Shown: piece after piece, positions 10,932-39,235 of the stretch | How the letters are laid out: each line of letters begins with the position of its first letter | How positions within the stretch are numbered: the stretch's first letter is position 1 | NCBI GenBank assembly: GCA_003635185.1 | Contig: PYJA01000033.1 | Span: 1 to 39,472, forward strand | Source of the DNA: Candidatus Poribacteria bacterium | GTDB taxonomy: Bacteria; Poribacteria; WGA-4E; WGA-3G | Direction of reading: 5' to 3' | DNA: 39,472 bases | Program-made: the position numbers and the translations under genes | The notes under the pieces: model-generated | Database searches by the model: none | What the model was told of the DNA's origin: nothing | The model's input: only the letters and a program-made list of their open reading frames with translations

Positions 10932-11396
10932 TTAGTCCAGTTCTGTACCGCATCGTGGACAATTATCGTCCCATGTTGAACGTCTACCTTCACCGCAACC
11001 GTGGCATTCCCCAAACGGATGTTCATCCGGTTTTGCGCGGGCACCACCTTTCTTATAGGTGATGATACGCCACACAGTCTCGCCATCCTCTTCCCAACAG
11101 AGCCAAACTCCCTCTTTTCTCCCATCGGATGAAGTACCATCGTGTTTTTTGTAGGGACCGCCCCATTTGCGATTTCCATTTTCATGATAGCAGATATAAT
11201 CGCCTTCGTACTTATCATCACGGAAGTAAGCCACGCTGGAAATGTTCCCATTCTTATGATATAGAATCCATTTTCCATCCTTTTTACCGTGAATGAAGTT
11301 ACCTTCGCTTCTTTTTAATCCACTCGCGAAATAGGTAATCCAATATCCGTGCTTTTTACCGTCAACTATCTCGCCTGTATCTCGTGAGCTCGCCAT
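10932..11396 (-). CDS. MORN-repeat protein with C-terminal zinc ribbon (copy 1)
   Basis: The 154-residue protein is built of MORN_2-like repeats (about residues 10-120; GKKHGYWITY, GKKDGKWILYHKNGN, DKYEGDYICYHENGN, GRKEGVWLCW). It ends in a zinc-ribbon-like tail with CHGC and CPRC pairs (about residues 130-150). It resembles YwqK-type MORN proteins; no function is established. It is about 95% identical to the copy at 15004-15468 (8 differences by eye). Identity continues about 50 bp past the stop, into what is the ribosome site and ATG of the LamG gene in the other locus. Here that leader opens only a 6-codon frame, so this copy looks like the derived one. GGGAGG precedes the ATG. Confidence 0.85.
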   Translation of the reverse strand: MASSRDTGEIVDGKKHGYWITYFASGLKRSEGNFIHGKKDGKWILYHKNGNISSVAYFRDDKYEGDYICYHENGNRKWGGPYKKHDGTSSDGRKEGVWLCWEEDGETVWRIITYKKGGARAKPDEHPFGECHGCGEGRRSTWDDNCPRCGTELD

Positions 11397-15003: not shown

Positions 15004-15468
15004 TTAGTCAAGTTCTGTACCGCATCGTGGACACTTGTCGCTCCAAGTTGAACGTCTGCCTTCACCGCAACCGTGACATTCTCCAAATGGATGTTCGTCC
15101 GGTTTTGCGCGGGCTCCACCTTTTTTGTAGGTGATGATTCGCCATACCGTCTCGCCATCCTCTTCCCAGCAGAGCCACACGCCTTCTTTTCTACCATCGG
15201 AAGAAGTGCCATCGTGTTTTTTGTAGGGACCACCCCATTTGCGATTCCCATTTTCATGATAACAGATATACTCACCTTCGTACTTATCATCTCGGAAGTA
15301 AGCCACGCTGGATATATTCCCATTCTTATGATATAGAATCCATTTCCCATCCTTTTTTCCATGAACGAAGCTCCCTTCGCTGCGTTTCAATCCACTCGCG
15401 AAATAGGTAATCCAATACCCATGCTTTTTACCATCAACCATCTCGCCTGTATCTCGTGTGCCTGCCAT
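15004..15468 (-). CDS. MORN-repeat protein with C-terminal zinc ribbon (copy 2)
   Basis: The 154-residue paralogue of the gene at 10932-11396 has the same MORN-like repeats and the CHGC/CPRC tail. It starts 11 nt after the stop of the protease/TPR lipoprotein gene, with AAGAGG before its ATG, and leads into the LamG gene. The order protease-MORN-LamG looks like a real transcription unit, and this is probably the source of copy 1. The function of the repeats is unknown; MORN motifs mediate membrane or protein contacts in other systems. Confidence 0.85.
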   Translation of the reverse strand: MAGTRDTGEMVDGKKHGYWITYFASGLKRSEGSFVHGKKDGKWILYHKNGNISSVAYFRDDKYEGEYICYHENGNRKWGGPYKKHDGTSSDGRKEGVWLCWEEDGETVWRIITYKKGGARAKPDEHPFGECHGCGEGRRSTWSDKCPRCGTELD

Positions 15469-17543: not shown

Positions 17544-18008
17544 TCAATCAATTTCTGCGCCACATTTTGGACAATTATCACCCCAACTTAAACGTCTTCC
17601 TTCGCCACAAACGTGGCACGTTCCTTGAGGGTATTCATCCGGTTTTGCACGGCTGCCACCCTTTTTGTAGGTAACGATTAGCCACACCGTTTCGCCATCT
17701 TCTTCGTAACCATAAAATGGTCCTTCCTTTTTGCCATCATAAGATTTTCCCTCATGTTTAGGATAAGCACCTCTGGATCTGAGGTTCCCGTTTTCATGAT
17801 AAGTGATACAAGGACCTTCATATTTCCCATCACGGAAGGAGGCTTCACCCGACTTGTTCCCATTTTTGTGGTAATTGATCCAGGGCCCATCCTTTTCACC
17901 GTGAATGTAGTTACCTTCGCTTCGCTTTACACCATTCGCGTAATAGGTAATCCAATATCCGTGTTTTTTACCATCAACCATCTCACCCGTGTCAAGTTTA
18001 CTTGGCAT
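17544..18008 (-). CDS. MORN-repeat protein with C-terminal zinc ribbon (copy 3)
   Basis: The 154-residue paralogue is more diverged than copies 1 and 2. MORN repeats are GKKHGYWITYYANG, GEKDGPWINYHKNGN, GKYEGPCITYHENGN and GKKEGPFYGY; the zinc pairs are CHVC and CPKC. AAGAGGTG precedes the ATG. It starts 54 nt after the HhH gene at 18063-18518, mirroring the HhH-MORN pair at 19703/19211. So the two-gene unit was duplicated or is kept together by selection. Confidence 0.84.
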   Translation of the reverse strand: MPSKLDTGEMVDGKKHGYWITYYANGVKRSEGNYIHGEKDGPWINYHKNGNKSGEASFRDGKYEGPCITYHENGNLRSRGAYPKHEGKSYDGKKEGPFYGYEEDGETVWLIVTYKKGGSRAKPDEYPQGTCHVCGEGRRLSWGDNCPKCGAEID

Positions 18009-19210: not shown

Positions 19211-19675
19211 CTAATCAGTCTCTGCGCCACACTGTGGGCAACTATCACCCCATTTTAGACGTTTCGTCTCGCCGCAACCGTGGCACGTTCCGAGTGGATA
19301 TTCATCGGGTTTTGCGCGGGCACCACCTTTCTTATAGGTAATGATACGCCACACAGTTTCTCCATCGTCTTCGTACCATTGCCATGCCCCTTCCTTTTTA
19401 CCATCATAAGATTTGCCTTCATGTTTAGGATAAGTCCCAATCATTCCGATGTTCCCATTTTCATGATAGGAGGTATAAGTGCCTTCATGTTTATTATCAC
19501 GGAAAAAGGCTTCAACATAGATGTTGCCATTCTTGTGATACTGAAGCCAAGGTCCGTCCTTTTTGCCATGGATATAGTTGCCTTCGCTGCGTTTTATTCC
19601 ATTCGCGTAGTAGGTAATCCAATATCCATGTTTTTTACCATCAACCATTTCACCGGTTGTGCGTGAATTTGCCAT
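19211..19675 (-). CDS. MORN-repeat protein with C-terminal zinc ribbon (copy 4)
   Basis: The fourth 154-residue paralogue: GKKHGYWITYYANG, GKKDGPWLQYHKNGN, NKHEGTYTSYHENGN and GKKEGAWQWYEDDGE, with zinc pairs CHGC and CPQC. All four copies have the same length and an invariant RAKPDE linker before the ribbon, so length and fold are under constraint. It begins 27 nt after the HhH gene at 19703-20209. Confidence 0.84.
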   Translation of the reverse strand: MANSRTTGEMVDGKKHGYWITYYANGIKRSEGNYIHGKKDGPWLQYHKNGNIYVEAFFRDNKHEGTYTSYHENGNIGMIGTYPKHEGKSYDGKKEGAWQWYEDDGETVWRIITYKKGGARAKPDEYPLGTCHGCGETKRLKWGDSCPQCGAETD

Positions 19676-27302: not shown

Positions 27303-28136
27303 ATGAATAAAATACCCTTTATGAAACTCAGTGGTGCGGGGAATGACTTCGTAATCATCAACAATCTAAACCAAGTCGTTGATAGTGCAGATTCTGAATT
27401 CATGAATTTTGTCACAAAGATATGCCAACGTCGTATGTCAGTGGGTGCTGATGGCGTGCTGCTTGTTGAACCGACAGAAGATGTAGATTTTCGGATGCGT
27501 TACTTCAATGCCGATGGTGGTGAAGTTGAAACCTGTGGAAACGGCGCACGTTGTATCTCTAAATTCGCTTACCTGAACGGTATTGTGTCAGAACAGATGC
27601 AATTTCTGACAAATGCTGGTATTTATGAAGCGGAAATTGTTGATGATAACGTAAAAGTACGTATGAGCGATCCGACAGATATTCGGATTAATGTTCCACT
27701 TCGTCTTGAAGATGGAGTCCATAATGTAGGTTTTGCAAATAGCGGTGTACCGCATGTTGTATTCTTTGTAGATGACTTGGAAACGACTGATGTTTTTGAT
27801 CTCGGACAACAAACACGTTATCATAACGATTTTAAGCCCGCAGGTACCAATGCGAATTTTATCTGTATCCATTCACAAGAACTGATTGAAATTCGCACGT
27901 ATGAACGAGGCGTTGAAAATGAGACACTCGCTTGTGGCACAGGTTCCATTGCCTCAGCTATTGTATCTGCAACTTTGGGGAAGGTAAAATCACCTGTTTC
28001 TGTCAAAACAGCGAGCGGTGTCGTTTTGAAAATACATTTTGATTTGGAAAACGACGAAGCCAAAAACGTGTATCTTGAAGGCGATGCGCGCGTAATATTT
28101 GCAGGCGAACTTACATCGGAAGCATGGGATTATTAG
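27303..28136 (+). CDS. dapF: diaminopimelate epimerase
   Basis: The 277-residue enzyme interconverts LL- and meso-diaminopimelate, a late step of lysine and peptidoglycan synthesis. Signature pieces are MKLSGAGNDFVIINN, ETCGNGARC with catalytic Cys78, and ETLACGTGS with the second catalytic Cys. Both cysteines are present, so it looks active. AAGGAC precedes the ATG. dapA follows, so the two lysine/DAP genes form a unit, probably with dusB. Confidence 0.95.
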   Translation: MNKIPFMKLSGAGNDFVIINNLNQVVDSADSEFMNFVTKICQRRMSVGADGVLLVEPTEDVDFRMRYFNADGGEVETCGNGARCISKFAYLNGIVSEQMQFLTNAGIYEAEIVDDNVKVRMSDPTDIRINVPLRLEDGVHNVGFANSGVPHVVFFVDDLETTDVFDLGQQTRYHNDFKPAGTNANFICIHSQELIEIRTYERGVENETLACGTGSIASAIVSATLGKVKSPVSVKTASGVVLKIHFDLENDEAKNVYLEGDARVIFAGELTSEAWDY

Positions 28137-28142
28137 AAGGCT

Positions 28143-28160
28143 GGCACAGTTCATTGTGCC
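28143..28160 (+). repeat. GGCACA-GTTCAT-TGTGCC hairpin
   Basis: This is an 18-bp perfect hairpin in the dapF-dapA gap. It is close in sequence to GCACAATTCATTGTGC at 17113-17128. No T-run follows, so it is not a standard terminator; it could be a processing or pausing site or a repeat remnant. Confidence 0.6.
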
Positions 28161-28183
28161 GTAGTTATCAAGGAGGGATTTAA

Positions 28184-29059
28184 ATGTTTGAGGGCTCTTA
28201 TGTTGCACTCGTTACACCATTTAAGGACGATGAATCGTTAGATGAAGCAAAACTGAAAGAATTGATTCAGTTTCAGATTGAAGGCGGCACACACGGCATC
28301 GTCCCGTGTGGGACAACAGGTGAATCCCCCGCCCTTTCAGAAGCTGAACACGACAGAGTCATAGAAATCACCGTTGAAACGGTAAATAGACGTGTGCCTG
28401 TCATCGCTGGTACTGGCTCAAATTCAACGACACGCACGCTACGCGCGACAGAACATGCCAAAGCTGCAGGTGCGGATGCTGCACTGATTGTCACCCCTTA
28501 TTACAACAAACCTACGCAAGAGGGGTTATACGCGCACTATATGAAAGTTGCCGACACAGTAGATATACCGATTGTTGTCTATAACGTTCCGGGACGATGT
28601 GGTACAGACATCCTCTCTCCCACGATTGCACGTCTCGCTGAACATCCAAACATCGTTGCGCTTAAAGAGGCGACAGGTGAACTCAAACGCGCAAGTGAAG
28701 TTGTCAATCTATGTCCCGATGACTTTGTTGTGTTATCAGGCGATGATGTTAACACACTGCCGATTATGGCAGTAGGTGGAAAAGGGGTTATTTCGGTTGT
28801 CGCAAACATTGCACCCGCTGATATTGCTGAAATGTGCAACGCCTTTCATGCAGGAAATCTTGAACTTGCTCGGAAACTCCACTATAAAACCTTGCCGTTA
28901 GCGGTTAATCTATTTATTGAAACGAATCCTATTCCGGCGAAAACAGCGTTAATGTTGATGGAGAAACTCAATGGAAAAGTCCGGCTTCCGCTTGCACCGA
29001 TGGTGTCTGCCAATCTTGAATCCCTCCGTAAGACGCTTGTGGAAACAGGATTGATTTAA
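28184..29059 (+). CDS. dapA: 4-hydroxy-tetrahydrodipicolinate synthase
   Basis: The 291-residue TIM-barrel aldolase condenses pyruvate and aspartate semialdehyde, the first committed step of DAP/lysine synthesis. Visible are GTTGESPALS (Thr pair at 44-45), PYYNKPTQEGLYAHY, VVYNVPGRCG (Tyr133) and VALKEATGE with Schiff-base Lys161. All catalytic residues are present and length is normal. AGGAGG precedes the ATG. It shares the transcription direction of dapF, with 47 bp between them. Confidence 0.96.
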   Translation: MFEGSYVALVTPFKDDESLDEAKLKELIQFQIEGGTHGIVPCGTTGESPALSEAEHDRVIEITVETVNRRVPVIAGTGSNSTTRTLRATEHAKAAGADAALIVTPYYNKPTQEGLYAHYMKVADTVDIPIVVYNVPGRCGTDILSPTIARLAEHPNIVALKEATGELKRASEVVNLCPDDFVVLSGDDVNTLPIMAVGGKGVISVVANIAPADIAEMCNAFHAGNLELARKLHYKTLPLAVNLFIETNPIPAKTALMLMEKLNGKVRLPLAPMVSANLESLRKTLVETGLI

Positions 29060-29174: not shown

Positions 29175-29405
29175 GTGGATCATTGGACTTCTATAAACAT
29201 TTCGCCCCGCTGGAACTACTACTGCCAAGATATTTTTTTCGGGTTCTTTCAGTTTACTAAACCTGTTGTTGAAGAACCGAAGGTATCCTTTAAAGATGAT
29301 ATTATGCCAATTCTTGTTGTGAGATGTGCTATACAAGGATGCCGCCTCGTTGGACATTTCACAAACCTTTACCTACCCACTACGATACTTTTGATGTTGT
29401 GTTAA
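29175..29405 (+). pseudogene. fragment resembling a C-type cytochrome-like/planctomycete cytochrome domain
   Basis: A short open frame contains VEEPKVSFKDDIMPILVVRC and then AIQGC, a pattern seen at the start of cytochrome-C-like domains (VSFxxDIxPILxxxCxxxGCH). The second half drifts out of frame (YLPTTILLMLC, where DLTTYDTLM would be expected). No haem CxxCH is present. With no ribosome site and no continuation, I read it as a gene remnant in the 630-bp gap after dapA. Confidence 0.4.
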
Positions 29406-29457: not shown

Positions 29458-29520
29458 ACTACGCAAATTTTGCCTGATTTACTATGCAATTTTTTCGCAG
29501 TATGCAAATTTTGCGTAGTA
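29458..29520 (+). promoter_or_regulatory. three palindromic enhancer-like sites upstream of the sigma-54 promoter
   Basis: Three related sites lie in tandem: ACTACGCAAATTTTGC (29458-29473), TATGCAATTTTTTCGCAGTA (29483-29502) and TATGCAAATTTTGCGTAGT (29501-29519). Consensus is near TAYGCAAATTTTGCGTA, which is close to self-complementary. They sit 40-105 bp upstream of the -24/-12 box, a usual distance for activator binding. A similar CGCAAATCTGC lies in the promoter of the activator gene at 32609. Confidence 0.7.
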
Positions 29521-29560
29521 AAACAAATGATAAAACCCTTTAACGATACAATTCTTGAAT

Positions 29561-29575
29561 TGGCACGGAAATTGC
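29561..29575 (+). promoter_or_regulatory. sigma-54 (-24/-12) promoter
   Basis: TGGCAC-GGAAA-TTGC fits the sigma-54 consensus in every base, with GG and GC ten nucleotides apart (29562 and 29574). Start of transcription would be near 29587. A leader of about 100 nt follows, with a CTGAG-AAGTT-CTCAG hairpin. It is the only such match I noticed in the window. Confidence 0.88.
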
Positions 29576-29689
29576 GCGTATAGTTTCACAAGGCTGAGAA
29601 GTTCTCAGTCAGAAACAGAGTGTTTTTCCTTAATCGTCTACACAACATGTTTAATTTGCCTGAAAGTTTTTAACAAAGGAGGTATAATT

Positions 29690-29893
29690 GTGAAAAAAAG
29701 AATTTTTACACAAAATACAGATATAGCATTCGTCGCTGCAGGTGGTGGACTTACCGTTATCTCGTACTTTGCACTCTTTTTTTCAGGAGTACGGGATCCA
29801 CCTCAGTATCATAGCATTGGCTATATCGCTCTGGGGTTTCTTGTCCCTAAAACAGATGGACACACCATCACAAGTACCCCCGAAACTGAATAG
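29690..29893 (+). CDS. small membrane protein, first gene of sigma-54 operon
   Basis: The 67-residue protein begins MKKRIFTQNTDIAFVAAGGG. A hydrophobic stretch (FVAAGGGLTVISYFALFFSG) follows, then a second weaker one (IGYIALGFLV), and a Thr-rich polar tail. GTG start at 29690 with a perfect AAAGGAGG seven bases before. No family is recognised. It is the first gene after the sigma-54 promoter. Confidence 0.7.
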   Translation: MKKRIFTQNTDIAFVAAGGGLTVISYFALFFSGVRDPPQYHSIGYIALGFLVPKTDGHTITSTPETE

Positions 29894-29899
29894 GCAGCA

Positions 29900-30181
29900 G
29901 TGGCGAAAGATAGGTTCACCGTGGCACTTATTATTTGTATTGGTGGTGGGCTGCTGATCGGCGCAAACGCTATCAAAAGCAACACCAAGAACCCACCGCC
30001 TTGCATGCAACGGATACAACCGGACTGTATAAAGGATATGCCTGAACCGGTTTGTCCACCTCAACAAGAACGTGTCCCTTGTCCGCTGGACGCAATTCAA
30101 CATCACGTCCCTTGTCCGCTGGACGCAATTCAACATTACGTTCCTTGCCCGTTGGACACAGCGAGGCAAAGGGATAACTGA
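29900..30181 (+). CDS. secreted/anchored Cys-Pro-rich repeat protein
   Basis: The 93-residue protein has a GTG start at 29900, a hydrophobic N-terminus (VALIICIGGGLLIGANA) and then a Cys/Pro-rich domain. The C-terminal half holds three 11-residue repeats, VPCPLDAIQHH, VPCPLDAIQHY and VPCPLDTARQR, encoded by 33-bp DNA repeats that are almost identical in the first two. Four more Cys and Pro residues precede them. It starts 7 nt after the previous stop. No family is recognised; the repeat gives a Cys every 11 residues, which suggests disulfide or metal links outside the cytoplasm. Confidence 0.65.
   Translation: MAKDRFTVALIICIGGGLLIGANAIKSNTKNPPPCMQRIQPDCIKDMPEPVCPPQQERVPCPLDAIQHHVPCPLDAIQHYVPCPLDTARQRDN
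30076..30165 (+). repeat. 33-bp tandem repeat, three copies
   Basis: The unit CGTCCCTTGTCCGCTGGACG plus CAATTCAACATYA is repeated twice almost exactly, with a third diverged unit. It encodes the VPCPLDAIQH(H/Y) repeats. Confidence 0.85.
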
Positions 30182-30201
30182 GAACAAAGGAGTTTATAAT
30201 C

Positions 30202-30975
30202 ATGTTAACTTTGAAAAAGAACTGGCATTGGATGCTTTTTGTTCTTGTTATTTTTGGAGGTATTGGTGTCGTCTTGTTTACACAGTTGAACACCGATACT
30301 GAACCGAAAACCGTATATAAACTACCATCAGAGGAAACGCTACAAAAAATCCGGGAGAAGGCGGCTGCACGGAAAGCACAAGCGGATGATGGAACGAACA
30401 GACCGCCACCCCCCGGTGAAACACATGAAACCGGGTATTGGCACGGGGATCATTGGCACCGCACTGCCCCATCCGTTAACGAAAAGCAGGCAGCGCGGGA
30501 CGGGACAAATGTCCTCCCCAGCACAACTGAGAACCCGAAACGCCGAAAGTGGTTACGGGAAGGAGAGGTCAAACCCGGCCATTTCTATTCCTTTGACGAA
30601 GATGGATACCTTGTTTGTGATGAAAATGGTAACCTTATTCAAACACCCTACGGTGATCCTGCTTTTCATATATTCACAACGATTGGGTTTAGACCCACTT
30701 ACGAGGAATACCAGGAATACAAAAAGTTAGTGACACAAGGTAATGCCGCTTATATGGCGGGAAACATGGCAGAATACAATCGGTTAGTCGCTGAAGTTTT
30801 ACAATTTCGTAGAGATCACCAAGGTGAAGTTCCTGACCTAACAGCATCAACTGTCTTCCCAGATGATCATACCCCCGCTACCCCCGAAGCCAATGCTCGT
30901 TTCGACCGTATGGTAGTCGAAAAGCACAATCAACTCTATAGGGAGTGGGGATTAGGGTACTTACTTGAAGATTAG
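30202..30975 (+). CDS. membrane-anchored periplasmic protein with His-rich GYWHGDHWH segment
   Basis: The 257-residue protein has one N-terminal membrane helix (WMLFVLVIFGGIGVVLF) and then a low-complexity Lys/Ala stretch. A PPPPGETHETGYWHGDHWHR segment follows, with four His and two Trp near residues 72-86 and a likely metal-binding character. The rest is soluble with FYSFDEDGYLVCDENGNL and a C-terminal helical part (EYQEYKKLVTQGNAAYMAGN). CAAAGGAG precedes the ATG. No annotated family is recognised. It is the third gene of the sigma-54 operon. Confidence 0.75.
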   Translation: MLTLKKNWHWMLFVLVIFGGIGVVLFTQLNTDTEPKTVYKLPSEETLQKIREKAAARKAQADDGTNRPPPPGETHETGYWHGDHWHRTAPSVNEKQAARDGTNVLPSTTENPKRRKWLREGEVKPGHFYSFDEDGYLVCDENGNLIQTPYGDPAFHIFTTIGFRPTYEEYQEYKKLVTQGNAAYMAGNMAEYNRLVAEVLQFRRDHQGEVPDLTASTVFPDDHTPATPEANARFDRMVVEKHNQLYREWGLGYLLED

Positions 30976-31014
30976 ATTCCAACGATTTTACACATTTTTA
31001 GGAGGTTTTACAAA

Positions 31015-32298
31015 ATGTTCCGAAAAACGATTTTCACTTTGATTATAGTGCTAACGCTAATGGTAAACTCAAATGAGGTGTCCAAAGCAGGCTTTTTTGA
31101 TGATTCCATTGATTTTGACAAAGGTGCTGTTGCTGCGTGGTGGGAATGTGACGTATCAGACTATTACAAAGTTAAAAGCTGCAGCATAACTGGTGATCAT
31201 GATGCGTCGGACACCTGTACGGGCAGTTCTTACCATAATGTTTCAGAAAACTGGAAAAACAAACCCGAACAGATTGTGGTGAATGGTGTTGCCAACTATG
31301 AAGGGAATGGCTATGTCCGTTTCTCTGCCACAGGTGGACGGATAACATTAAATGGTGGTGTCTATCAACAACTCACCTCCAGGACTACCGCTGGGGAACC
31401 CGTAGGAAGCATGCCTCAACTCAAAAAGAAAGGCAGTAATAAAAAGAAGCCGAGATATACCCTTGTTCACGGCACAGGCACCGTTCGAAAGGCCGTATAT
31501 AAACTGGGTACACCGACATTGATTGGCAGTTATACCCTAACTGTTGATAGTGGGACTGCCATCGGAGACGGTTTTGAGGCATCTGGTGGTGCTTATGTCG
31601 AAATCTCCGCAACTACAGGTGTTACAGAATTTTCGGTTACAGGAACTTACGGGGTGACTGTTGAGTGGAGCAAAGGACGTGAAGTCACCACCACAGGGAT
31701 ACTCAGCAATAGTTGGGATTGGCAGGTCAGTGAAAAAAACATGTGCAATTCACACAATCCCCCGCAAGAGATTAGCGAGGTTCATGCCCATCATTGGATA
31801 TGTCCCGAAGGATCTGGCAGCATGAACGGTGGTTGTGGTGCTCACATCCAATGTGGGAATCCTGAATCAAATATCCCTGACTATCATAAGTTACAGGATG
31901 TCTGTCCTGGACCTTCCACGGATCCCTCAGGACACTGTAGCGTGGGAGCACCCTATCGGAAGTGCACACATAGTTGTGAGTACTACAGCCCTGACGATGA
32001 TAGCAATGACGAACCGATATACTGTGCCAGGGAACTTTGTGGCAAAGTTGTCAGTGATCCCTATGAGCACTATATTAAATGCGGCACACAGGATGCTTCT
32101 AATGCCCCTTCTTGTGGTCAAAAATTCTGGAGTTGTGTCCCGACAATTTATGATCGTCACAAGCCAAGGTCCTGCGACAAAAGCGTCAGAAACGATGATG
32201 GAACACATTCCGAATGTCCGGCATACCTTCGGAATTGCAAACACATCAAGGGATACCATACGGTGTCATGGAAGACGTGGCATCACTCAAATGACTAA
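31015..32298 (+). CDS. secreted Cys-rich protein, last gene of sigma-54 operon
   Basis: The 427-residue protein has a signal peptide (IFTLIIVLTLMVNSNEVSKA). The N-terminal two-thirds is beta-rich (VRFSATGGRITLNGGVYQQL; TGVTEFSVTGTYGVTVEWSK). From about residue 240 there is a Cys/His-rich tail with roughly 20 Cys, in patterns such as CGAHIQCG, CSVGAPYRKC, CARELCGKV and CGQKFWSC. These could bind zinc or form disulfides. TAGGAGG precedes the ATG. A terminator follows at 32326. No known family is recognised; it is probably the main exported product of the operon. Confidence 0.78.
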   Translation: MFRKTIFTLIIVLTLMVNSNEVSKAGFFDDSIDFDKGAVAAWWECDVSDYYKVKSCSITGDHDASDTCTGSSYHNVSENWKNKPEQIVVNGVANYEGNGYVRFSATGGRITLNGGVYQQLTSRTTAGEPVGSMPQLKKKGSNKKKPRYTLVHGTGTVRKAVYKLGTPTLIGSYTLTVDSGTAIGDGFEASGGAYVEISATTGVTEFSVTGTYGVTVEWSKGREVTTTGILSNSWDWQVSEKNMCNSHNPPQEISEVHAHHWICPEGSGSMNGGCGAHIQCGNPESNIPDYHKLQDVCPGPSTDPSGHCSVGAPYRKCTHSCEYYSPDDDSNDEPIYCARELCGKVVSDPYEHYIKCGTQDASNAPSCGQKFWSCVPTIYDRHKPRSCDKSVRNDDGTHSECPAYLRNCKHIKGYHTVSWKTWHHSND

Positions 32299-32325
32299 CC
32301 CTCGTAAGATGAATTCACAGCTTAC

Positions 32326-32358
32326 AGGCAGGTCCCCTTTTGGGTGCCTGCCTTTTTT
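32326..32358 (+). terminator. rho-independent terminator of the sigma-54 operon
   Basis: GGCAGGTCCC-CTTTT-GGGTGCCTGCC is followed at once by TTTTTT. It lies 28 bp after the stop of the Cys-rich secreted protein. Confidence 0.85.
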
Positions 32359-32429
32359 GTTGGTGCCTATGGCGTTTGCGTGCCCAATGCATCATTTTAT
32401 GCACTCTTTCCGACCTAATTTTTTCTCTT

Positions 32430-32562
32430 CAGGACTTACGCAGTTTCTCTTAAAGTCCCACTGATAAGGGGGATTTAGGGGGTTAAATCACTGAAATATC
32501 ATTGAAATAACGACTTTTTAACCCTCCTAACCCCTCTTATCAAGGGGGAATGCGTAAGTCCT
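32430..32562. mobile_element. 133-bp MITE, copy 1 (reverse orientation)
   Basis: The ends CAGGACTTACGCA and TGCGTAAGTCCT are inverted. Inside, a second inverted pair CCCCCTTATC/GATAAGGGGG nearly makes a full hairpin. It matches the copies at 37533 and 39102 when reversed. Here no clean target duplication is seen and the last G is lost. Confidence 0.88.
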
Positions 32563-32597
32563 ATTCAATATTCTGTGTAAATCCTTTTATAATTCGT

Positions 32598-32625
32598 TTG
32601 ACATTTTTCGCAAATCTGCTATGCT
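32598..32625 (+). promoter_or_regulatory. sigma-70-type promoter of the sigma-54 activator gene
   Basis: TTGACA (32598-32603), 16 nt, TATGCT (32620-32625). The spacer holds CGCAAATCTGC, close to the enhancer-like sites at 29458-29520, which could let the activator control its own gene. The -10 covers an ATG at 32621, so translation must start later. Confidence 0.6.
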
Positions 32626-32683
32626 AATTGGTAAGACAAACACGTCCGAAAATGCACCTATTTTTGATGCGTGTGGATATCCT

Positions 32684-33967
32684 ATGGCTGAAAAGCGGAA
32701 AACATTCAAGATGCGAAACGAAAAAGGGCCGTCTATTGATCAAAAGCACATTATTATTGCCAGTGAATCATCCGATACGTTAAAAAGTTTAGGCGATCTA
32801 TTTGAACAGAACGGTTATGAGGTCTCTATCGTCCCCGATGGCAGTGAGGCATTACGGCATATTATGAGCGAAAATCCGAAGGTATACGTGCTGACACCTC
32901 CGCATGCTGCTGATATGCAGTGGACACTGCGTAAACCAACGACGACAGATATGCGTCAAGTTACTCAAACACCCTCTACGTCAAGGAGCATGTTGGATGG
33001 GGATTATTCGGAGATTATCGGTGAGAGTCCACAGATACTTAAAGTTCTCACCCAAATTGACCATATTGTAAACACAAATGCAACGGTGTTAATTTATGGC
33101 GAGACAGGGACCGGTAAAGAGCTGATAGCGCGTGCATTGCACAAAAACAGCAAACGCTCAGAAAAAGCGATGGTTGTTGCGAACTGTGCTGGGTTTCCAG
33201 AGAACCTGATAGAGAGTGAACTCTTTGGGCATGAGCAGGGTGCCTTTACCGATGCAAAATCGCAACATATCGGTAAATTTGAACAAGCACAAGATAGCAC
33301 GCTTTTCCTTGACGAAATCGGGGAATTACCGTTGACGCTTCAACCGAAGTTTTTACGAGCACTTCAAGAACGCGAGATTGAACGTATCGGCAGTACAAAG
33401 TCGATCCCAATAAATTTCCGAGTAGTGGCAGCTACCAATCAAAATCTAAAGGAGTCCGTTGAAAACGGTACGTTTCGCGATGATCTCTATCATCGGTTGA
33501 AAGTGGTCTATATTCATCTGCCGCCATTGCGGGAGCGAAAGAAAGATATTCATAGTTTGGCAAAGCATTTTTTAGAAAAATATAGTCAGGAACCCAAGTG
33601 TCCAAAACATAAAATAGCACCGCAAACACTTGTCCTACTTCATAACTACGCGTGGCCCGGGAATGTACGAGAACTTGAAAACGTTATGATCTACGCGACC
33701 ATATTTGCCAAAAGAGAGGAAATTTTACCTGAACACTTACCAGAAGAAATTCAAGAGCTAAAAATTGACCTACTCAAAGAAGAACAAACACCTAAAGAAG
33801 AACAAACACTTAGCTTTCCAATTGGAACCACAATAAAACAGATGGAAAAAACAGTTATCTTAAACACTTTAGATCGAATGGAAGGAAATCGCATAAAAAC
33901 CGCTGAGATATTGCAAATTAGTGTGAATACATTGCGAAATAAGTTAAAAACTTATGCTAAAAAGTAA
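32684..33967 (+). CDS. sigma-54-dependent transcription activator (NtrC family) with degenerate receiver
   Basis: The protein of about 427 residues has three parts. First, a shortened receiver-like region (HIIIASESSDTLKSLGDLFE, then VYVLTPPHAADM) whose phospho-acceptor Asp and acidic pocket are missing. Second, a full AAA+ sigma-54 interaction domain with Walker A GETGTGKE, the GAFTDA loop, Walker B LFLDEIGELP, and the arginine-finger region LYHRLKVVYIHLPPLRER. Third, a Fis-type HTH (MEGNRIKTAEILQISVNTLR). All the motor motifs are intact. No sensor kinase is near, so it probably responds without phosphorylation. An ATG at 32621 lies inside the -10 box, so 32684 is preferred. The likely target is the sigma-54 operon just upstream. 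Confidence 0.9.
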   Translation: MAEKRKTFKMRNEKGPSIDQKHIIIASESSDTLKSLGDLFEQNGYEVSIVPDGSEALRHIMSENPKVYVLTPPHAADMQWTLRKPTTTDMRQVTQTPSTSRSMLDGDYSEIIGESPQILKVLTQIDHIVNTNATVLIYGETGTGKELIARALHKNSKRSEKAMVVANCAGFPENLIESELFGHEQGAFTDAKSQHIGKFEQAQDSTLFLDEIGELPLTLQPKFLRALQEREIERIGSTKSIPINFRVVAATNQNLKESVENGTFRDDLYHRLKVVYIHLPPLRERKKDIHSLAKHFLEKYSQEPKCPKHKIAPQTLVLLHNYAWPGNVRELENVMIYATIFAKREEILPEHLPEEIQELKIDLLKEEQTPKEEQTLSFPIGTTIKQMEKTVILNTLDRMEGNRIKTAEILQISVNTLRNKLKTYAKK

Positions 33968-34019
33968 GCAGAAATAGGCTGGGATAGAACCCTGTCCCTA
34001 ACGTAAAAGGAATTTGCAC

Positions 34020-35285
34020 ATGAAAGTCACAAATGTAGAACGTACCTTAGTTGATGTCCCGTTTACACCACGCCAACAAGAAATTACCACCCAAAGCGTC
34101 TCAACTGTTTACAACTGGTCCCTCCTTGAACTGTGTAAAGTTACCACAGATACTGGCCACATCGGATGGGGAGAGACGGTCATTCACTATACTTATTCAC
34201 GTGTCAGCGACGCGAGCGTTGAACGTGTGCTCGGTCAAAGTCCCGCTGAACACATGAATGACGACTCACTCGGTGCCGGATTACAGATGGCACTCTTTGA
34301 TGTCGTGGGCAAAATCTTGGAAGTACCAGTATATAGACTCCTCGGAACACAGTGCCGTGAGGTTGTGCCAATTTCATGGTGGAGCATTGACGCATCGCCT
34401 GAAAATTGGGCAGCAGAAGCCGCCGATGCTGTGGCAAACGGTTATACCAGTTTTAAAAACAAACCTCGCCCATGGTGGGATATTATCAAGCAAGTAGAAG
34501 CAATAGCAGAAGTTGTTCCTACTGACTTCAAATTGGATTTAGATCCCAACAGTTCTCTACGCGATGCTGAAACCGCTATCCCGATTTTGCGGAAACTTGC
34601 CGCACACCCGAATGTAGCGATCTTTGAGTCCCCGATTCCGCAGGGTGACGTAGCGGGCAATAAACAGATTCGGCAAGCAGTTGACTGCCCGATTGCGATG
34701 CACTTTGGTTCACCGCCTTATACCACATGTATTCGTGAAAATGTCTGCGACGGTTTTGTTATCGGTGGTGGCAAATCTCGGACGATGTATGATGGGTATC
34801 TCAGCGCAGCAGCCGATATGCCGTTCTGGCTACAGATAGTTGGCAACGGATTAACAACGACTTGGGCGGCACATCTCGGAAGTGTGCTGACGCATGCTAC
34901 CTGGCCCGCAATCACTTGTCTTAATCTCTATAGTGAACATCTACTTACAAAACCCATAGTAGTTTCGGATGGCTGCCATGCTGTTCCTGATGCGCCGGGA
35001 TTAGGCGTTGAAGTTGACGAAGCAGCAATTGAGAAATTCCGTGTGCCTGATGAAAAATTGGATGCCCATGGATATACCATTCATCCCCACCCGCGGATCA
35101 TCAAAACAGTGGTTTATCCGGATGGCAGGCGTATCCGGATGGCAGGCGATGGCTTGAGCTATTTCAATGCTGGAAACGGTGATGCTTACGTTGAGGGGGC
35201 GCGTCTTGAGTTGACATTTGACGATGGCACAAAAGAATGGACTGAATTATATGAGAAGGCATTGGAAACACCTGTACATTGTTAG
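34020..35285 (+). CDS. enolase-superfamily (MR/MLE-like) protein with altered metal site
   Basis: The 421-residue protein has a capping domain (GHIGWGETVIHYTYSR) and a barrel from AGLQMALFDVVGK. Expected second-strand lysine is in FKNKPRP and a metal Asp in FKLDLDPNSS. A metal Glu is in IFESPIPQGD. The third metal ligand is not visible: the position reads IAMHFGSPPY, with His/Ser where Glu or Asp is usual. AAAGG lies before the ATG at 34020; a TTG two codons earlier is less likely. The extended C-terminus (YPDGRRIRMAGDGLSYFNAG) is outside the normal barrel. It could be a divergent dehydratase or epimerase; catalysis is uncertain. Confidence 0.8.
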   Translation: MKVTNVERTLVDVPFTPRQQEITTQSVSTVYNWSLLELCKVTTDTGHIGWGETVIHYTYSRVSDASVERVLGQSPAEHMNDDSLGAGLQMALFDVVGKILEVPVYRLLGTQCREVVPISWWSIDASPENWAAEAADAVANGYTSFKNKPRPWWDIIKQVEAIAEVVPTDFKLDLDPNSSLRDAETAIPILRKLAAHPNVAIFESPIPQGDVAGNKQIRQAVDCPIAMHFGSPPYTTCIRENVCDGFVIGGGKSRTMYDGYLSAAADMPFWLQIVGNGLTTTWAAHLGSVLTHATWPAITCLNLYSEHLLTKPIVVSDGCHAVPDAPGLGVEVDEAAIEKFRVPDEKLDAHGYTIHPHPRIIKTVVYPDGRRIRMAGDGLSYFNAGNGDAYVEGARLELTFDDGTKEWTELYEKALETPVHC

Positions 35286-37532: not shown

Positions 37533-37665
37533 CAGGACTTACGCATTCCCCCTTGATAAGGGGGGCAGGGGGGTTAAATAGTCCGGTATTTCAGTGTTTT
37601 TCGTCTTTTTAACCCCCTAAGTCCCCCTTATCAGGGGGACTTTAAGAGAAAATGCGTAAGTCCTG
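37533..37665. mobile_element. 133-bp MITE, copy 2, with ATAAT target duplication
   Basis: CAGGACTTACGCATT faces AATGCGTAAGTCCTG. The 5-bp direct repeat ATAAT flanks it at 37528-37532 and 37666-37670. The inner hairpin arms are CCCCCTTGATAAGGGG and the matching CCCCCTTATCAGGGGG. It is nearly identical to copy 3. Confidence 0.92.
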
Positions 37666-37680
37666 ATAATTAACGATACA

Positions 37681-39101: not shown

Positions 39102-39235
39102 CAGGACTTACGCATTCCCCCTTGATAAGGGGGGCAGGGGGGTTAAATAGTCCGGTATTTCAGTGTTTTTCGTCTTTTTAACCCCCTAAATCCCCCTTAT
39201 CAAGGGGGACTTTAAGAGAAAATACGTAAGTCCTG
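39102..39235. mobile_element. 133-bp MITE, copy 3, with TCACT target duplication
   Basis: CAGGACTTACGCATT faces ATACGTAAGTCCTG. TCACT flanks at 39097-39101 and 39236-39240. It is in direct orientation to copy 2 and almost identical to it (one arm has ATACG where copy 2 has ATGCG). Confidence 0.92.

Follow-up and report, generated by a model that had tools for sequence, protein, structure and literature searches.

A predicted sigma-54 module in Candidatus Poribacteria: an activator with a triple enhancer and exchangeable exported cargo

The stretch of DNA analyzed here, referred to as the window, spans 39,472 nucleotides of contig PYJA01000033.1 (positions 1 to 39,472 of the forward strand) in the Candidatus Poribacteria bacterium assembly GCA_003635185.1, a genome of 4.57 Mb in 141 contigs that is 82% complete. 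Between dapF-dapA (27303-29059; dapF is named from its sequence) and a mandelate-racemase-like gene (34014-35285), the window holds a sigma-54 promoter with three palindromic sites, a short run of genes for exported-looking proteins, here termed the cargo, and a gene for a sigma-54 activator. The sequence features, synteny, triplet geometry, helix-enhancer covariation and cargo exchange described below were established by computation. Taken together, these features probably mark a self-contained sigma-54 module, in which a NorR/PspF-like activator would be tied to its own triple enhancer and drive exchangeable exported proteins.

At the core of the locus is a sigma-54 -24/-12 box, TGGCACGGAAATTGC, on the plus strand at 29561-29575. 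As the first-pass annotation of this DNA had claimed, the box fits the full consensus; it is the sole perfect TGGCACGN4TTGC match in the window. A 16-bp sequence at the box, TTGGCACGGAAATTGC, is identical in the orthologous locus L095, and a transcription start predicted near 29587 would be consistent with the position of the box. Upstream on the same strand are the three related palindromes that had also been claimed. Site 1, TACGCAAATTTTGCCTG (29460-29476), is centered 93 bp before the box, at the position of the first site in the clade; site 2, TATGCAATTTTTTCGCA (29483-29499), is the weakest copy and is centered approximately 71 bp before the box; and site 3, TATGCAAATTTTGCGTA (29501-29517), is centered 52 bp before it. 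As a triplet, these sites outscore 100 of 100 Markov shuffles. Across its own genome, 17 matches to the window's site with at most two mismatches are listed; they fall at 15 places, of which two are here, and no second place in the genome carries two copies. At the six of the 13 other places that were fetched, no sigma-54 box lies within 400 bp of the site.

Genome wide, TGGCACN5TTGC is matched 38 times versus nine times for the reversed pattern. Thirty of the 38 matches were fetched, and 10 of these lie outside long open reading frames (ORFs); as judged by eye, seven of the 10, among them the window's own, are followed by an ORF that has a ribosome site and codes for a hydrophobic N-terminus. 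Three other sigma-54 promoters of the same genome (L017, L023 and L036) have a different upstream word in common (AGACACATAA / TGTGTCTTA), which suggests another activator with a multi-promoter regulon.

Behind the box, the first-pass annotation had described four same-strand genes with strong ribosome sites. By eye, strong sites do precede ORFs A, C and D, whereas B starts at GTG without a good site. ORFs A (29690-29893, plus strand) and B (29900-30181, plus strand) are in one frame, and the piece between (29778-29924) matches a single 195-aa gene of L099 (genome G043) in another frame, at 40% identity and E 1.9e-13 against this stretch; matches of the 195-aa gene on either side of this piece fall in the A/B frame. 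A and B are therefore best read as split remains of one ancestral small membrane/Cys-Pro gene, broken by frame shifts unless these shifts are assembly errors, so that the cargo would consist of three genes rather than four. ORF C (30202-30975, plus strand) encodes 257 aa with an N-terminal membrane anchor and a GETHETGYWHGDHWHR motif and has relatives in 34 of 57 family genomes. ORF D (31015-32298, plus strand) encodes 427 aa with a signal-peptide-like start, 19 cysteines and a Cys/His-spaced repeat. Its relatives occur in four of 84 phylum genomes, its own counted, and when genome contigs were scanned with D, 25 stretches fitted a pattern and none was confirmed as a relative. Pfam and NCBIfam gave nothing above cut-off for A, B, C or D, and a single-sequence AlphaFold model of D was too low in confidence for use (mean pLDDT 33.1). 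The strong terminator claimed to end the cargo is indeed found at 32326-32353 on the plus strand, where an intrinsic terminator folds at -23.3 kcal/mol (z -3.9; one of 200 shuffles as good); a separate pattern scan did not list it.

The next gene (32621-33967, plus strand) encodes, by domain profiles, a sigma-54 activator with a degenerate receiver, an AAA+ domain, a lid domain and a Fis-type helix-turn-helix (HTH) domain. The AAA+ part matches PF00158 Sigma54_activat at 2.4e-69 (232.8 bits versus a cut-off of 20.2), the C-terminal HTH matches PF02954 HTH_8 (41 bits versus 22), and a GAFTDA loop can be read in the sequence; the earlier call of a sigma-54 activator with a GAFTDA motor is thus upheld. 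The receiver lacks the acidic pair and the acceptor Asp, and it scores 15.2 bits against a Response_reg cut-off of 30.2, short of a phosphorylatable receiver. A putative sigma-70-like promoter of the activator (TTGACA, spacing 16, TATGCT with TG) lies at 32598-32625 on the plus strand, and its 29-bp core is identical in L095. Because the ATG at 32621 sits within the -10 element (32620-32625) of this conserved promoter, the activator probably does not start there, and 32684 or 32711 appears to be a likelier start. A single-sequence AlphaFold model of the activator (mean pLDDT 31.3) was too low in confidence for use.

In a tree of AAA+ domains, the module activators group as a single clade (support 0.998), and nine response regulators from other Poribacteria families make up its sister group (0.977; joining node 0.908). 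The tree included 10 of 11 such response regulators (L256 was left out), with one further activator of this genome as outgroup, and the tenth regulator, L257, branches outside the sister group. This relationship is the likeness of the family to NtrC-type systems, since these closest outside relatives carry receiver motifs; the differences are the loss of acidic pair and acceptor Asp in the window's receiver and the lack of a nearby sigma-54 box in 10 of the 11 response-regulator loci. In 47 module activators, the stretch ahead of the AAA+ part is only 14-58 residues long in 31 and 92-133 residues long in 15; the remaining one is a truncated call. The window's activator thus belongs to a clade in which the receiver is degenerate or absent and which is related to ordinary response regulators. 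The aspartate of its loop is not a mark of this clade, since GAFTDA occurs in seven members, compared with GAFTGA in 27 and GAFTSA in nine.

The regulatory part of the arrangement seen in the window recurs across the family. At E<=1e-92, 54 of 64 family activators were fetched and 10 were left; two more lay in the fetched stretches, which gave a sample of 56. A near-consensus sigma-54 box lies within 7 kb of 48 of the 56 activators, and 31 of 57 promoters are within 1 kb of the activator. In the 632 kb of the 54 activator loci, there are 57 intergenic boxes versus one for the reversed pattern. A significant triplet (p<=0.05 versus Markov shuffles) precedes 37 of the 57 module promoters, compared with seven of 115 random intergenic segments and none of eight other sigma-54 promoters of this genome. 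The geometry of these triplets is nearly fixed: within a search range of 17-26 bp, the first spacing is 22-24 bp in 28 of the 37 and the second is 18-19 bp in 31. Moreover, the genes behind the promoters tend to look exported, with an N-terminal hydrophobic segment in 99 of 135 cargo genes (the first three behind promoters) versus 200 of 571 ORFs of the same loci.

The enhancers fall into classes that correspond to the recognition helix of the activator. TGGG..CCCA enhancers go with the helix (H/D)RRTLH(N/K)KL, TGTAAAG with SR(V/T/P)TLxxKL, TTCCAAA with SLSSLYNKL, most TGCA enhancers with S(I/L/V)RTL(Q/H)NRL, CGTCA with IRTLQRKL, TGGTCA with TRATLR(A/T)KL, TGGAAA with S(R/Q/L)PTLRAKL, and CGGCAA with SARTLRNKL. 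The window has an enhancer of the TGCA group, yet its helix, SVNTLRNKL, departs from the helix of that group. Over 34 activator-promoter pairs, enhancer similarity correlates with helix similarity at 0.54 and with AAA+ similarity at 0.51; allowing for AAA+ identity, the partial correlation of enhancer and helix is 0.36 (permutation p 0.0005). This Mantel test dropped the 22 of 56 activators without a significant triplet and kept the best promoter per activator; both L195 pairs were matched by hand, and the enhancer register chosen by the program was shifted for at least L095, L174 and L186. Close AAA+ relatives can differ in both helix and enhancer, as L110 and L180 illustrate.

Further evidence comes from genome G046, where TGTAAAGAATCTTTACA, used by itself as the search pattern, recovered the known module together with a second cluster located on another contig. 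The second cluster repeats the three-site frame and has a sigma-54 box and Cys-rich genes that look exported, with no activator in the 9 kb shown. This search was an unforced test of the module model. Paired promoters were found additionally in L103, L104, L106 and L109. Together with the second G046 promoter, they show that small regulons exist, and the idea that each enhancer serves a single promoter is ruled out. Within genomes, the enhancer classes may be distinct: 16 modules in six genomes show no repeats (shuffle probability 0.045), weak evidence because class assignment was manual and the 16 do not include the second G046 promoter.

With at least nine activator-like genes in the genome, the box could in principle be run by another sigma-54 activator, the neighboring one acting elsewhere and lying here by chance. 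Action at a distance, and a G046 enhancer class that is also present at a promoter without an adjoining activator, would agree with this. However, the enhancer follows the helix over the 34 pairs, box, site and activator stand together in the ortholog too, and a cluster of two or more sites is found nowhere else in the genome, which makes this explanation quite improbable. The proposal made at first pass that the activator controls the neighboring promoter is very probably correct, given the covariation and a site pair unique in the genome.

The larger claim of the first-pass annotation united the activator with all four proteins in a single co-evolved regulon, which makes a metal- or disulfide-linked cell-surface structure. 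Gene order and the single shared promoter in the window speak for it, as do three C-family operons of another genus (L110, L111 and L112) that stand behind module sigma-54 promoters with a clade activator adjoining. Additionally, eight of 41 Cys-rich proteins, D among them, have a Cys/His spacing in common where shuffles predict none, a pattern that is compatible with a metal- as well as a disulfide-linked surface structure. The C-family genes that were read argue otherwise. From more than 100 matches, 30 loci with 39 C-family genes were picked for cargo similarity, and for 37 of the 39 genes the 1.5 kb upstream contains nothing resembling a box. One gene, in L205, has an off-consensus box only, and L212 alone combines a good box with a clade activator in the stretch. 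General sigma-54 control of the C/D pair is ruled out by this count of one in 39. Furthermore, B-C-D operons without a sigma-54 box or activator, the kind of locus that the annotation had itself named as evidence against its proposal, were found in L096, L097 and L099. With A and B probably being one split gene and the orthologous sigma-54 locus holding other cargo, the claim of a single co-evolved unit is largely refuted and now seems unlikely. The recurring unit is the activator with its own triple enhancer; the four proteins do not define the system. In L043 and L101 (genome G044), long arrays of paired genes for anchored His-motif and Cys-rich secreted proteins occur without sigma-54 boxes.

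The orthologous locus, L095 of genome G034 (L116 is the same record), matches the 16-bp box at every position and has one perfect TATGCAAATTTTGCATA site. Its activator is 72% identical to that of the window and carries an in-frame stop and further frame damage, and its cargo differs, consisting of a membrane protein of 251 aa and a small exported protein that is broken. In L115 (JAPPES010000140.1), which is 96% identical on both flanks, the positions corresponding to 29070 and 33959 of the window are joined directly. L115 thereby lacks 4,888 bp of the window, and because the last two codons and the stop of the activator remain, it looks like a deletion. Matches to the racemase gene comprise 50 loci, and the best 45 by identity are Candidatus or uncultured Poribacteria with up to 97% identity, several of these loci ending early at contig ends. 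A clade-type activator stands upstream of the racemase in seven of the 45 (L116, L126, L128, L140, L147, which is the same record as L108, L148 and L154), so that the activator's position there is probably old.

The broken activator of G034, the loss of the module in L115, the split of A and B and the insertion of an element resembling a miniature inverted-repeat transposable element (MITE) between cargo and activator would all fit a decaying relic, with module and cargo out of use. For the window this is very improbable, as box, enhancers, activator and the C and D frames are intact there.

Several findings nevertheless weigh against a self-contained module. The losses in G034 and L115 may mean that the module is dispensable or decaying, and the A/B gene is split in the window itself. 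No rpoN was found in this 82%-complete genome; rpoN is present in 53 of 57 family genomes. Eight of the 56 activators have no box, although for four of the eight a contig end lies no more than 300 bp away, and 20 of the 57 promoters have no significant triplet, a whole subclade among them. Finally, the permutation in the Mantel test ignores the tree. The triplet-less subclade (L170, L175, L182, L184, L191, L193, L196, L199, L200 and L202) has a nearby box and no detectable triplet; a different enhancer layout may exist there, because some members share other upstream words.

If the locus works as a self-contained module, the activator would be made from its own sigma-70-like promoter, and its dimers would bind three copies of their own palindrome, TAYGCAAATTTTGCRTA. 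On the three sites, the activator would assemble into an AAA+ ring, which would remodel sigma-54 polymerase at 29561 and switch on the cargo up to the terminator: the split small membrane protein, the anchored His-motif protein C and the secreted Cys-rich protein D. Binding, ring assembly, activation and export are the steps that we infer. Phosphorylation is a less likely means of control than either regulation in trans, of the PspF kind, or the abundance of the activator. In the Poribacteria module family, receiver function has probably been lost, enhancer and recognition helix have diversified together, and cargo has been exchanged.

A broader interpretation, for which the case falls somewhat short of even, is that, in one family of sponge-associated bacteria, a two-component response regulator was turned into plug-in modules: sensor-less activators with class-specific enhancers in a near-invariant three-site frame, largely insulated from paralogs and driving swapped exported cargo. 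Just as tentatively, the swapped cargo may comprise Cys-rich secreted proteins, six-Cys peptides, an STT3-like membrane protein and a lasso-peptide-like cluster. The six-Cys peptides, each of approximately 85 aa, occur with a 665-aa membrane protein that weakly resembles STT3; the likeness comes from a PDB match at E 0.47 and from STT3-type motifs, and Pfam gave no support. In L204 (genome G052), at approximately 4044, a sigma-54 promoter with a triple enhancer precedes Transglut_core3, Asn_synthase and PqqD genes, a set found in lasso-peptide clusters.

Several characterized systems offer points of comparison. In E. coli, the NorR ring is scaffolded by three enhancer sites at the norVW promoter (PMC2941729), and the likeness to the window lies in this number of sites upstream of one promoter. 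A GAFTGA to GAFTDA change leaves NorR active without signal (PMC2941729), so that a GAFTDA loop can work. Unlike NorR, the window's activator has no GAF domain by Pfam and scores 347.6 against an NCBIfam NorR cut-off of 476. PspF and HrpR/HrpS have no N-terminal regulatory domain and are controlled by protein binding in trans (table in PMC7175178), which the 31 short module activators resemble; the window's activator differs from PspF in keeping a degenerate receiver and scores 279.3 against an NCBIfam PspF cut-off of 443.55. Sigma-54 has been described as controlling the exterior of bacteria (Francke 2011, PMC3162934), and the module's predicted targets are likewise directed outward. Predictions in Desulfovibrio vulgaris place activators next to sigma-54 promoters with palindromic sites (PMC4641369). 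However, the available parts of PMC3162934 and PMC4641369 describe no lineage-wide, near-fixed triple geometry with differing site classes.

The module would place exported proteins without annotation, from a symbiont lineage that is uncultured and sponge-associated, under a switch that can be predicted. In Poribacteria, a DNA pattern may be enough to find co-regulated exported genes, as it was in one case, in G046. The pairing of helices with enhancers is a data set for a DNA-recognition code of Fis-type HTH domains and bears on how paralogous sigma-54 activators may avoid crosstalk, and the near-fixed triple geometry is a testable statement on AAA+ ring scaffolding on DNA. Orthogonal activator-enhancer pairs would also serve as useful parts. 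If the plug-in interpretation is true, the symbionts' secreted and surface repertoire would be diversified with each output separately controlled.

In the open-licence library searched, Poribacteria appear in no paper together with the terms sigma54 or enhancer-binding protein, and a single listed paper, on a Janthinobacterium sponge pathogen, mentions them along with sigma-54. The text of a Poribacteria single-cell paper (PMC3909097) does not contain "sigma", and PMC3162934 and PMC12316311 do not name Poribacteria.

Other features of the window include the remnant of an exported-protein gene at 29175-29405; relatives carry this gene at full length, as at L095 1672-2181. The MITE-like inverted-repeat element between cargo and activator (32430-32562) is approximately 133 bp long and was not seen in the ortholog L095; it has further copies in the window at 37534-37666 and 39103-39235. 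Elsewhere in the genome, where 40 of 218 candidates were scored, there are at least 41 more strong copies. An Rfam scan of the window gave nothing at gathering scores. On the minus strand, four paralogs of exactly 154 aa each (10932-11396, 15004-15468, 17544-18008 and 19211-19675) contain repeats that look MORN-like by eye and a C-terminal CxxC pair.

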